A DNA stretch of 64,000 nt from Paludibacteraceae bacterium (lineage in GTDB: Bacteria; Bacteroidota; Bacteroidia; Bacteroidales; Paludibacteraceae), in NCBI GenBank assembly GCA_905234835.1, contig CAJOIZ010000003.1:1-64000 (forward strand), written 5' to 3'. Below the pieces are notes generated by a model. The model was not told the origin of the DNA. It was given only the letters and a program-made list of their open reading frames with translations, and made no database searches. Numbering within the stretch: position 1 is the stretch's first letter; each line of letters opens with the position of its first letter. Below are positions 7,806-43,418 of this stretch, one piece after another. The translations under genes and the position numbers were made by a program.

Positions 7806-8429
7806 ATGGTATATGGATATATTAGAGTATCAAGTGACAAACAGACCGTTGACAACCAACGGTATGAAATAAGTTCTTTCTGTAGTAAAAATGGCTTGCA
7901 GATTGACCGTTGGATTGAAGAAACGATTTCCGGCACCAAGAATTACAAGCAGCGTCGGTTAGGAACTCTTCTGCGGGGCATCAAACAGAATGATCTTATT
8001 ATCTGCAGCGAATTGAGCCGTCTGGGAAGAAGTTTCTATATGATTATGGAGATTCTGAGCTTATGTATGAACAAGGAGTGCAGAGTATGGACAATCAAGG
8101 ACGGCTACCGCTTGGGCGATGACATCCAGTCTAAGGTACTGGCTTTTGCGTTTGGCATCTCAGCAGAAATAGAAAGAACACTCATCTCACAACGAACCAA
8201 GGAAGCACTCGCACGAAGAAAAGCAGAAGGAAAACAACTTGGAAGGAAGAAAGGAACTGTCATCGACTACGAACATTTGAGACTGCACCGCTATCACAAT
8301 CGGATTATGACTTACATACAGTCCGGATATTCGGTGAGCGAAATGGCTAAAAAACTGAAATGCGGTTATATGCAGCTCAAACGTTATATAGAGCGTTACA
8401 ACCTTGCCCAACAACCTAAACACCAATAG
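7806..8429 (+). CDS. Serine-type site-specific recombinase (Mpi-type DNA invertase family)
   Basis: YGYIRVSSDKQTVDNQ ... SELSRLGRSFYMIMEIL ... FGISAEIERTLISQRTKEALARRKAEGKQLGRKKG. Confidence 0.9.
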   Translation: MVYGYIRVSSDKQTVDNQRYEISSFCSKNGLQIDRWIEETISGTKNYKQRRLGTLLRGIKQNDLIICSELSRLGRSFYMIMEILSLCMNKECRVWTIKDGYRLGDDIQSKVLAFAFGISAEIERTLISQRTKEALARRKAEGKQLGRKKGTVIDYEHLRLHRYHNRIMTYIQSGYSVSEMAKKLKCGYMQLKRYIERYNLAQQPKHQ

Positions 8430-38645: not shown

Positions 38646-39179
38646 TTACATCGCCACTTTGCTCATCATCCCGCCGAAGGAGAAGAACTCATGCAGCCAT
38701 TGGAAATTGGGCTTGCGCTTTATCTCACTGATGATGGTCTTCTCTATCCTGCTGCACAGTTTGTTGTACTCCTGCTCGGTCATCTCCCTTTTGCAGCCTT
38801 CCACATAACGCATGAACACAGCCGGTGTCTGTATGGTGCGCAGCATCTTGCCGATGGCTTCTGATGGCATCTCGCCGTCCTCGTACAGGCGGTACTGGTT
38901 AGCGCCCAAGCCAAGAATCTGCGACATCTTGGCTGCAGAGAGTCCGTACCGCTCGCGCAGGGCGGTCAGTTCGGCAGGCGACGGGATGTCGTGCTTGGCG
39001 CGGTACTGCTCGTAGATGCGCTCGAGGTTGCCTGTGTCTATCTCTGTCGTTGTGTATTCAATACCTGTCTCCAAATCCTTTACATTATGATGCTCGTAGG
39101 TGTACATCTCCCCGCGATATTCTATCTCGCGCATCTCTTTCTGATAAACGGCTTCGCCTTCTGTAAGCATGCTTTTCAT
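38646..39179 (-). CDS. HTH antitoxin, MqsA-like
   Basis: LTALRERYGLSAAKMSQILGLGANQYRLYEDGEMPSEAIGKMLRTI; overlaps upstream toxin by 4 bp. Confidence 0.7.
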   Translation of the reverse strand: MKSMLTEGEAVYQKEMREIEYRGEMYTYEHHNVKDLETGIEYTTTEIDTGNLERIYEQYRAKHDIPSPAELTALRERYGLSAAKMSQILGLGANQYRLYEDGEMPSEAIGKMLRTIQTPAVFMRYVEGCKREMTEQEYNKLCSRIEKTIISEIKRKPNFQWLHEFFSFGGMMSKVAM

Positions 39180-39541
39180 AATGTGCCTCCTTTCTTATAG
39201 GGATAATCCATGGGGTGCTCCGCTATGTGGAACGAAACGCAGATGGTGGAACGGTTGGGCAGTCCGTAACAGATTTTGATATACACCTCCTGTCCGTTCA
39301 CGTCCTTGCCGAAAACCCACAGGTCGCCCAAACGGTTCAGCAGGTTCTTGATGGGACCTTCGGAATAATCTTCCACCGTGATGGTTTTCACTATCTCTTT
39401 TCGTTCTATAGCTGTGATACCCAGTTTGGTAAGAGCTTGTGCGTTCTTCTCACGCTCATCCCAAAACAGGATGTCAAACACCTTTACTTTCTGCTGGAAT
39501 TCGTTCAGGAAGCGTTCCACTTCCGCGATGGTTGCTATCAT
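39176..39541 (-). CDS. MqsR-like toxin candidate
   Basis: VERFLNEFQQKVKVFDILFWDER...VYIKICYGLPNRSTICVSFHIAEHPMDYPYKK; pairs with HTH antitoxin. Confidence 0.6.
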   Translation of the reverse strand: MIATIAEVERFLNEFQQKVKVFDILFWDEREKNAQALTKLGITAIERKEIVKTITVEDYSEGPIKNLLNRLGDLWVFGKDVNGQEVYIKICYGLPNRSTICVSFHIAEHPMDYPYKKGGTL

Positions 39542-39889: not shown

Positions 39890-41095
39890 TCAGTACAGCA
39901 GGCCGAAAAGCCACAGCGGGATTTTGTTACCCGCCGGATAGTCCATGTCATCAGCGGCAATAAAAGCCTCTTCCTTGGCACGGGCAATCTGCCTGCCGTC
40001 TTTCGCTTTTCCGCCGACCTCAAACAGCCAACGTCTGTCCACCCTGAAATCTCCCTGTCCGGAATACTCCACCTGATGGCGGCAGCCGGTCTGGTTGGCG
40101 AAGAACGTCTCGCGCACCGTCCCCGGATTAGGTTCCGCTAATGACAAGGCATAAACAAGGTTGCTGTTCTCCATCAGCATCTTGTCCGGCTTCTGCATTT
40201 TCTTCACCGACAATTCATCGGCATACAGCAGCCGGATGAGTTTCGCCTCGTGGAGATACTGCAAGTACGCCAGCAGGGTTGTCCGTGCAATGCCGGTCAT
40301 TCGGGACAGTTTGGCTATGTCCACCATCATCGGCACCTGCGTGGCGATGACCGCCAGTAGCGACTTGAGTTTGCGGACATTGGCGATATCTACCTTGCGC
40401 AGTTGCGGGAGTTCGATATTGAGCAGCAAGTCCACCGTGTTCTCCACCCGCGTGTCATAAGCGGCGAAGCCCTCCGCACCGAAAGGATAATACCCTTTAC
40501 GGAGATAATGCCAGAAATGCTCCATCGGGCGGCACAAGCGCGCCACCTCGGAACAGATGTCCGTTCCGTGCCGCAGGATGTCCTCTAACGACACCTTCGG
40601 CAGGCTGATGCGGTGATAGAGCTGCATGTACTCGCGGTAAGAGAGTCCCTGCATGTCGTAACTCAATGCGCGGCGTGACAAGTCCGCTTCTGCATTCAGG
40701 ATATGCAGCAACGACGAGCCGCTGAACACCACCCGCAGAGAGGCGTAGGTGTCGTGAATCTCCTTTATCTCCTTGCTCCAGAAGGGGTAGTGCTGCACTT
40801 CGTCCACTAACAGCAGTTCGCCGCCCTGCCGGTAGAAACGTTCCGCCGTTTCCAGCAGCGTGTGTTGGGTGAAATAGGTGCTGTCCAAGCGGACAAACAG
40901 CGATTTGCGGTTGGCGACGCTCCCGTATTTGGCTTTCTGGCGCTGAAGCATGAGTGTCGTCTTTCCGACCCCACGTGAACCGCGAATGGCAATCAGACGC
41001 GATTCGTCCCATAAGACATCATCCATCATCGAGCGGACAAAACCGTCGGGCAGATGGTCAAGCAGCTCCTGGTTGCGTGCAAAAAGAATATCCAT
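39890..41095 (-). CDS. AAA_14/DUF4143-type ATP-binding protein #1
   Basis: Walker A GSRGVGKTTLML, LLLVDEVQHYPFWSKEIKEIHD, RVVFSGSSLLHI; promoter box at about 41150 on minus strand. Confidence 0.85.
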   Translation of the reverse strand: MDILFARNQELLDHLPDGFVRSMMDDVLWDESRLIAIRGSRGVGKTTLMLQRQKAKYGSVANRKSLFVRLDSTYFTQHTLLETAERFYRQGGELLLVDEVQHYPFWSKEIKEIHDTYASLRVVFSGSSLLHILNAEADLSRRALSYDMQGLSYREYMQLYHRISLPKVSLEDILRHGTDICSEVARLCRPMEHFWHYLRKGYYPFGAEGFAAYDTRVENTVDLLLNIELPQLRKVDIANVRKLKSLLAVIATQVPMMVDIAKLSRMTGIARTTLLAYLQYLHEAKLIRLLYADELSVKKMQKPDKMLMENSNLVYALSLAEPNPGTVRETFFANQTGCRHQVEYSGQGDFRVDRRWLFEVGGKAKDGRQIARAKEEAFIAADDMDYPAGNKIPLWLFGLLY

Positions 41096-41432
41096 AAAAC
41101 TTAATCCTTTATTTTAAGGTCATTCAGTCTGGTCGTATTTCAAAAATCGCCGCAAAGATAGTGCTTTTGTTTGATGTGTACAACTTTTTATTGTAAAAAG
41201 TGTTTTGTGTACGATACATTTTTATGTAATATGTGTTTTGTACAAATTACATTATGGTCAGTGAGAGACAGGGAACAAGGCAGATTGCCAGAAATTCAAG
41301 TTCCGTTTTATCAGTTGTTTCAATACGTCAAAGGTCGATTTCAGCTGCGCTGTTGGGCAACACTGCGTGTTAGTCAGCTTCACTGTTAGTGACTGCGTGT
41401 TGGAGAGTACATGTTATTCACACATTCACTGT

Positions 41433-41630
41433 CATTTAAACGGTCGTTTATTTGTTAATACCTTATTATATACAGAGACCCCATCTGTAAGGTCTGAAGA
41501 TTACGACAACCAACACCCATAAATAGCATGAATACTGTTAAAAAACGGAAAAAAGAGTCTGTAAATTTGGCAGAATGGAAATTATGCCGTACATTTGCGG
41601 CGCAGTTACGTATAAACGACCGTTTAAATG
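41433..41630. promoter_or_regulatory. Candidate invertible promoter: 18-bp perfect inverted repeats flanking 162 bp with a complete promoter
   Basis: IR-L CATTTAAACGGTCGTTTA (41433-41450), IR-R TAAACGACCGTTTAAATG (41613-41630); inside TTTG (41566) - 20 bp - TACATTTG (41590-41597); CAGTTAC/GTAACTG terminator straddles IR-R. Confidence 0.6.
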
Positions 41631-41877
41631 TAACTGCTTTTTTGTATTGAACACAAGGCGCATCGTTGCTCTGTTCAACAAAACCAATCTTGTAAATGTT
41701 TGTGACTGCGTGTCGGTGAGCCTTCGGCTGTTGGTTACTGCGTGTTTGTTACTGTGTGTTGGTGAGTTAATGTTTATGATTTATGGTTTATGGTTTATGA
41801 TTTCAAATTTCAAAATTCAAATTGCAAATTTATGGTTTAGACTCCGTGTTGGTTACTGCGTGTTGGTTAGCTAGAAA

Positions 41878-41940
41878 TCCTCGCTATTGTCCGCAACCAT
41901 AAAAGTCCACCGGACTTTCATGTAGTGACTGCGAGTTGGT
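41878..41940 (+). repeat. Dispersed hairpin repeat, copy C
   Basis: tcctcgctattgtccgcaaccataaaagtccaccggactttcatgtagtgactgcgagttggt. Confidence 0.9.
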
Positions 41941-42134
41941 GACTACGTGTTGGTCACTTCTTATCTCCGCTTCGCTCCGAACGATCGGCAGAGCCGTGCG
42001 TGTTGGTTAGTGTATGTTGTTTTTTCTGCCACTTTGTTTTATTGGCAGCGCAAGGGTACTCTATTTATACTGAAAAACAACAAGCAGGGCGATGGTCCTG
42101 CTTGAGAAAAAGATGAGATGTTATCAGATTGCCG

Positions 42135-43418
42135 CTATGGTTTAAGACAACCGATAGGGACTATATGCGTGCCGTTTTGTGCGGTCAGTGCATAATCGCC
42201 AACCGCAGTCAGCACCATACGAAAAGCAGGTAATCCGGCCTTGTCGGTATCTATTTTCTTTGCGAGTTTGGCTAATGTCTGCTTACCCTGCTCTACACCA
42301 TATTCGCCGCCCAGCTTGATTTCCACCAATCCATAAGTCCCATCGCGCCGTTCGATAACGGCATCACATTCCAGTCCGTCTTTGTCACGATAGTGATAGA
42401 CATTTGCATCTATGGCATCAGCATAAACGCGCAGGTCACGCATTGCCATCGTCTCAAAGAGCAGTCCCAAAGTCTCAATGTCAGCCATCAGTTTGTCGGG
42501 CGTAGCACCCAAAGCGGCTGTAGCGATACTGGGGTCAGTGAAATAACGGTTGGCTGTAGTGCGTATGGCTGTTTTTGACCGCAGATTAACGCTCCATGCA
42601 GGCATATCCTCAACGACAAAAATCTTCTCCAAGGCGTTGAGATATGAAGCTATTGTATGCTCCGACAGCGAGTCGTCGTCATTGGCCGCCATATCTTTGC
42701 GCAGTGTGCTCATAGGAGCCTGACTGCCTTGCAGACGAGCCAACGATCGAAGCAAGAGGCGTGTGCGCCGGGGATTTCGCAAGGTGTTGTCCACCTTCGA
42801 TATGTCCGATTCCACAATGGCATCCAGATAGTTGACGGCTGTTTGCAAAGCTTCTTTTTGCGTCAGTTGCAAAGTGACGGGCCAGCCACCGCGACAAAGG
42901 AAATAGGCTATGTCCTGTAACTGCCACCTGCTATGTCCGAATACTTTCCCTTGTCCGCCGAATAATGTCTCCAAACTGACGTCGCCTGTTGACTCTTCTG
43001 ACTCCCACAGACTCATAGTTCTCATTTTCAGCCATGCGAAACGCCCTGTGCCGGTGTGGTAAATCTTCTCCGTATCAGCAGGGACGGCAGAACCAGTCAA
43101 TATGAACTGTCCCGTCTGACGGCGATTATCCACCTCAAAACGGATAGCATCCCATAGTTCCGGGACTACTTGCCATTCATCGAACAAACGTGGCGTCAAG
43201 CCGTTAAGCAGAAAGTCAGGAGCGGTTGTAACCAGTTCCCGCGCGCTCCGACGGGCTTGCGGGCTGCCGAGCATCATACTGCTGCCCGCAATCTGCAAGG
43301 CAGTGGTCGATTTGCCGCACCATTTGGGGCCTTGTACCAGAACTGCTCCCGCTGATGACAGTTTGCTTTTCAGCTGCTGATCCGCTATCCGGGACCTGTA
43401 TTTCCAATCTTTCGACAT
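42135..43418 (-). CDS. AAA_14/DUF4143-type ATP-binding protein #2
   Basis: VQGPKWCGKSTTALQIAGS, RLFDEWQVVPELWDAIR, FILTGSAVP, C-terminal CDAVIERRDGTYGLVEIKLGG. Confidence 0.9.
   Translation of the reverse strand: MSKDWKYRSRIADQQLKSKLSSAGAVLVQGPKWCGKSTTALQIAGSSMMLGSPQARRSARELVTTAPDFLLNGLTPRLFDEWQVVPELWDAIRFEVDNRRQTGQFILTGSAVPADTEKIYHTGTGRFAWLKMRTMSLWESEESTGDVSLETLFGGQGKVFGHSRWQLQDIAYFLCRGGWPVTLQLTQKEALQTAVNYLDAIVESDISKVDNTLRNPRRTRLLLRSLARLQGSQAPMSTLRKDMAANDDDSLSEHTIASYLNALEKIFVVEDMPAWSVNLRSKTAIRTTANRYFTDPSIATAALGATPDKLMADIETLGLLFETMAMRDLRVYADAIDANVYHYRDKDGLECDAVIERRDGTYGLVEIKLGGEYGVEQGKQTLAKLAKKIDTDKAGLPAFRMVLTAVGDYALTAQNGTHIVPIGCLKP

Follow-up and report, generated by a model that had tools for sequence, protein, structure and literature searches.

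Invertible promoters of the Bacteroidales are best known from capsules and surface proteins, and the Mpi sites of Bacteroides fragilis have a consensus of the AAACG-NN-CGT type. Citing Krinos 2001 and Coyne 2003, PMC4747536 and PMC12632263 place Mpi invertible promoters of this species at the capsule loci PSA-PSH and elsewhere, and a PSA primer in PMC10939037 includes AGACGAACGT. In the flagellar switch of Clostridioides difficile, as described in PMC7446863, the orientation of a small invertible segment decides transcript termination.

The window analysed here is a stretch of 64,000 nucleotides on contig C3 of a Paludibacteraceae genome (G000), probably a metagenome bin. An earlier note on this DNA had proposed an Mpi-type invertible promoter at 41433-41630 that points away from an ATPase gene. 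The proposal is supported by two copies of the segment in opposite orientations on contig C46, by a true Mpi gene, and by a site type whose occurrence around promoters is largely restricted to Bacteroidales. We consider it very probable that these 198 bp form an invertible promoter of the Mpi kind that is phase-variable, is now OFF, and works as proposed below.

The switch fits the Mpi kind, a type already known from gut Bacteroides, on every testable feature. As in B. fragilis, a TTTG / TAnnTTTG promoter is enclosed by short inverted repeats in a segment of about 0.2 kb, the dyad core is AAACG-NN-CGT, and a serine recombinase of the Mpi family would act at distant sites. It differs from the known cases in its centre (GT/AC instead of TT/AA), in its targets (AAA_14/DUF4143 ATPase and Bro-N-like genes instead of capsule operons), in the proximal promoters that these targets retain, and in its duplicated cassette, in which the gene-side flank was copied together with the segment. 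Invertons of the Parabacteroides / Mediterranea type likewise have AAACG-NN-CGTTT pairs at a spacing of 150-180 bp, many with internal promoters, and pairs of P. gordonii and P. goldsteinii (L102, L129, L136) share the GT/AC-type centre, but their arms are longer, their interiors different and their targets presumably different. Segment orientation would govern termination as it does in C. difficile; there the tyrosine recombinase RecV is involved and Rho terminates the gene's own leader, whereas here an intrinsic-type hairpin would stop a wrongly directed promoter. The locus presents Mpi machinery in a little-studied Bacteroidales genus, duplicated, and placed before ATPase and Bro-N-like genes that have no known function or are defence candidates, which makes the switching of non-surface genes testable.

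Repeat arms, internal promoter and hairpin

The features discussed in the text are the following.

41433..41630, + strand: predicted invertible segment, 198 bp, OFF here relative to the gene starting at 41095
41433..41451, + strand: left crossover site and inverted repeat arm, CATTTAAACGGTCGTTTAT, with dyad TAAACG-GT-CGTTTA
41612..41630, - strand: right crossover site and inverted repeat arm, ATAAACGACCGTTTAAATG, complementing the left arm, centre AC
41566..41597, + strand: Bacteroidetes promoter TTTG-N20-TACATTTG within the segment, with TACATTTG at 41590-41597
41602..41643, + strand: terminator-like hairpin, in the OFF orientation only (CAGTTAC inside the segment, GTAACTG outside, then CTTTTTT)
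41397..41432, + strand: gene-side flank TTGGAGAGTACATG...CACTGT, identical at both C46 copies
41153..41184, - strand: proximal promoter of the ATPase gene, GTTG-N20-TATCTTTG, with similar promoters in most orthologues
39890..41095, - strand: AAA_14 / DUF4143-like ATPase, 401 aa, the gene that the promoter would face after inversion
7806..8429, + strand: serine recombinase of the Mpi family (NCBIfam model), the likely invertase for these sites

The perfect inverted repeats described earlier are present, but their length needed correction: the arms are 19 bp long (19 of 19 complementary), not 18 bp, with 160 bp between them. By base composition, a perfect 19-bp inverted repeat with a loop of at most 300 is expected by chance 7e-5 times per 64 kb. 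The cores, AAACG-GT-CGTTT on the left and AAACG-AC-CGTTT on the right, are symmetric except for the 2-bp centre, just as the note had it, and the two centres are complementary, which is what inversion by a serine recombinase needs. Such an asymmetric dyad centre is a typical feature of serine-invertase sites. The enclosed + strand promoter is also as claimed; it is an exact match to the Bacteroidetes consensus, and since a sense gene lies only on the left side of the segment, it can face a gene in one orientation only. In relatives (L044, L040), a sequence like this promoter precedes translation-related genes. The stretch 41360-42020 and more than 50 places in the genome contain degenerate tandem repeats of the TGACTGCGTGTTGG type, which fill many intergenic regions.

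The orientation-dependent hairpin is real as a sequence feature, and we regard it as a putative terminator. Its halves lie at 41603-41609 and 41630-41636, directly followed by the T-run. The predicted transcript from the promoter as assembled forms a 15-pair hairpin of -17.7 kcal/mol followed by TTTTTT; inverting the same stretch in silico leaves -8.4 kcal/mol and removes the T-run. The stem is AU-rich and is absent from the list of a simple terminator scan. No + strand gene follows downstream, as had been stated: the next gene, at 42135-43418, sits on the - strand. We examined the same feature at related segments, including that of a congener, G280 (record RUG13111, uncultured Bacteroidales bacterium). 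In G280 the OFF-direction hairpin is the stronger one (-14.6 vs -11.2 kcal/mol) and is followed by TATTTTTG; at C46 the energies are close (OFF -12.7 vs ON -10.6 kcal/mol) and the OFF tail is T-rich; a fourth segment, on contig C18, has a separate strong hairpin (a predicted terminator) outside it, on the OFF side. An OFF-direction hairpin with a T-rich tail is thus common to C3, C46 and G280. In each hairpin the dyad site itself accounts for the inner part, and the difference between OFF and ON lies in the outer stem and the T-run. A hairpin restricted to the wrong orientation of the promoter would be a simple guard against harm from a strong flipped promoter.

Copies of the segment and their orientations

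The earlier note had suggested searching the genome for further repeat pairs around promoters. Searching all 57 contigs of the assembly (2.68 Mb) by pattern and at the DNA level turned up three more. Two of them, at C46:333-531 and C46:11514-11712, are 94-96% identical to the window segment, giving three near-identical segments; the other, at C18:20575/20814, has a TC/GA centre and a different interior, with a promoter inside. The genome holds 26 core sites in all, and close pairs number four against 0.06 expected.

The C46 copies are separated by 11 kb, and the surrounding regions are duplicates of each other on both sides (84-90% identical), with at least the inner 50 bp of the flanks identical between both copies. 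Relative to these common flanks the segment is in opposite orientations, and the switch points fall within the arms. Each copy bears its own substitutions, so this is not a single locus that was assembled in duplicate. Judged by the gene on the shared side, the right C46 copy is ON, and both the left C46 copy and the window copy are OFF. The opposite orientations within common flanks are the strongest evidence here that segments of this type flip, as read from assembled sequence; both states are found across two paralogous loci rather than within one, and the window locus was assembled in the OFF orientation only. The gene lies on the same cassette side at all three places, and since the flank at 41397-41432 is identical at all three, the copied unit exceeds the inverted segment. 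At its two ends, the 12-kb contig C46 (L016) has the entire inverton region in inverted copies, and in principle 11 kb of housekeeping genes could be turned round by recombination between such distant sites.

Target genes and the proposed effect of inversion

The gene that the promoter would face after inversion exists as the note had described, except that 41095 is its start and not its end; it runs to 39890 on the - strand. The AAA_14 label is clear (84.5 bits), whereas DUF4143 falls just below the Pfam cut-off (26.2 vs 28.1 bits). A weak-to-moderate match to the PADLOC candidate PDC-S01 is only suggestive of a putative defence-type role, and a literature search on the function of DUF4143 ATPases returned nothing useful. 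In G280, a segment with the same GT/AC core has its promoter facing a 426-aa DUF4143-type ATPase (PADLOC PDC-S01) of the same broad family. As the 2.7-Mb G000 genome contains 31 DUF4143 ATPase matches, including two neighbours within the window (39890-41095 and 42135-43418), the occurrence of this family at both loci is suggestive but not decisive. A toxin-antitoxin-like gene pair lies near the window inverton at 38646-39541 on the - strand, with an MqsA-like antitoxin at 38646-39179, and an XRE-type toxin-antitoxin-like pair lies to the right of the C18 inverton (L017:9033-9895).

The ATPase gene keeps its proximal promoter, and a promoter-like sequence stands near the start in most orthologues that have enough upstream sequence. 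Of the simple on/off switching proposed earlier, the OFF facing of the promoter is retained, but a role as sole switch is improbable: inversion would more likely boost or re-time expression, and flipping probably adds an upstream promoter to the gene. Eight orthologues from the same genus, 69-70% identical, showed no AAACG-NN-CGTT repeat pair in the upstream stretches examined. Together with the genes' own proximal promoters, this is most simply read as the inverton being a later addition to the ATPase locus that would supply an upstream promoter when ON. The C46 and G280 target genes also have exact consensus promoters shortly upstream of their starts.

The contig ends truncate the target gene at C46. 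On visual comparison its 21 N-terminal residues, MQDQLSLFDGQLIRYVWDENE, look similar to the starts of two among four Bro-N proteins detected in the genome; a Bro-N search of the genome did not recover the rest of the gene, probably because the contig was cut within a repeat. A conserved motif, TCGACCTTTGACRTATTGA, lies between inverton and target gene at C3, at both C46 copies and in G280 (L051 and L046 leaders). In the window it occurs at 41320-41338 (- strand) and 44715 (+ strand), and weaker versions stand upstream of some ATPase orthologues (seven of 30 loci at four mismatches or fewer).

We propose that a serine recombinase, most likely the Mpi at 7806-8429, would pair the two dyad sites, cleave at the GT/AC 2-bp centre and rejoin the segment in the opposite orientation. 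In the assembled OFF state, the strong internal promoter would drive transcription away from the ATPase gene, and the resulting RNA would fold into a U-run hairpin made jointly by the segment end and the outside flank. Such a hairpin would act as a terminator and stop the transcript at once, so that it would not run as antisense into 42135-43418. In the ON state the hairpin would be unable to form, and the promoter would add a transcript with a leader of about 340 nt that passes through the proximal promoter into the ATPase gene. We infer ongoing inversion at the window locus, with the window Mpi as its agent, and a change in expression. A broader and more speculative idea, which we put forward tentatively, is that a copied cassette gives candidate anti-phage genes (AAA_14/DUF4143 ATPase, Bro-N-like) an extra phase-variable promoter with its own OFF terminator, and that one recombinase mixes the population for several genes.

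Candidate invertase, site pairs in other genomes and alternative readings

The Mpi-type recombinase noted at 7806-8429 is a genuine family member: its product scores 298.8 bits against a cut-off of 272 in the NCBIfam equivalog model 'master DNA invertase Mpi'. A second full gene of the family, at C24:2971-3570, is 62% identical to it, and the choice of invertase therefore rests on an association at the level of the genus, which is not proof. No inverted repeat of at least 12 bp adjoins either gene. We searched 178 congeneric genomes for strict site pairs, defined as AAACG-NN-CGTTT repeats 150-180 bp apart. A protein exceeding the Mpi-model cut-off is present in 107 of them, and a window-type Mpi (at least 76%, 76-79% identity, with a sharp gap to the next best at 68%) in five: G000, G279, G280, G283 and G333. 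Strict pairs occur in G000, G280 and G101, and a reversed control pattern gave no pairs in any of the 178. Two of the five genomes with a window-type Mpi (G000, G280) thus have strict pairs, against one of 173 others (Fisher p 0.002; p 0.045 with G000 left out). No strict pair was found in G279 or G333, and a looser pattern adds a TC/GA pair with a promoter inside in G283. The G280 Mpi is syntenic with that of the window, and the two resemble each other in the C-terminal DNA-binding region, where the C24 type differs. This makes the window Mpi the likely invertase for the segment.

Sites of this type also occur more widely. GTDB genomes with the site-pair pattern include Parabacteroides, Mediterranea, Tannerella, Prevotella and B. 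fragilis, among others. Among 80 matches listed by name (34 from Bacteroidales, 46 from other groups), long complementary arms are found in 28 of the former against three of the latter, and the corresponding counts for an internal promoter are 23 and none. Six pattern matches on viral contigs had neither extended arms nor a promoter (0/6). Site pairs in Treponema and Chloroflexota were discarded as tandem or palindromic-looking repeats with unextended arms and no promoter.

Three near-identical copies in one genome, absent from orthologous loci in the genus, might instead reflect the spread to three places of a MITE, about 198 bp long, whose terminal inverted repeats enclose a chance promoter. 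We consider this highly improbable and reject it on the flanks: identity runs at least 36 bp beyond the repeat on the gene side, a target-site duplication was looked for outside the arms and not found (CACTGT vs TAACTG), and the same two C46 flanks hold the segment in both orientations. The asymmetric 2-bp centre, as in serine-invertase sites, and the C18 and G280 pairs, which have site and promoter in common but hardly the interior, also speak against it. A former invertible promoter now locked OFF, its recombinase having lost specificity or expression, would agree with the assembly of OFF alone and with the many Mpi-carrying congeners (most of them) that have no site pair. It is quite unlikely: the arms match perfectly, the promoter is intact, the genome has an undamaged Mpi from the matching subgroup, and the sister copies differ in orientation.

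Two further alternatives accept flipping and concern its agent and its role. Inversion by the C24 Mpi, which scores higher in the family model (326 vs 298 bits), or by an unrelated recombinase is a minority possibility that deserves some weight. The C24 type is, however, the common subgroup, and its carriers in the genus are nearly all without a strict pair, whereas the window-type subgroup, with its distinct C-terminal DNA-binding region, is the one common to G280. It is unlikely that flipping serves to switch an antisense or leader RNA on or off instead of driving the ATPase gene: the separate promoter of that gene and the length of the leader speak for such a role, but the OFF direction ends at a T-run hairpin within about 50 nt, and the gene's constant cassette side at C3 and both C46 copies fits a promoter for that gene. 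A phase-variable promoter for the ATPase gene, inverted by the window Mpi, remains our preferred reading.

Other repeats were seen in the same genomes. The Mpi-like gene of G101 is not of the window type and is broken into two frames. Next to it and to a SusC-like gene lies an inverted repeat of 20 bp, ACGTCCCTTTAATTGCAGCC (G101:C1, L228:4105-4298), which probably represents another inverton type. More inverted repeats with a related diverged core, GAACGATT, and the same promoter type occur at L042 (G283:C11) and L046 (G280:C23), that is, in two genomes carrying a window-type Mpi.
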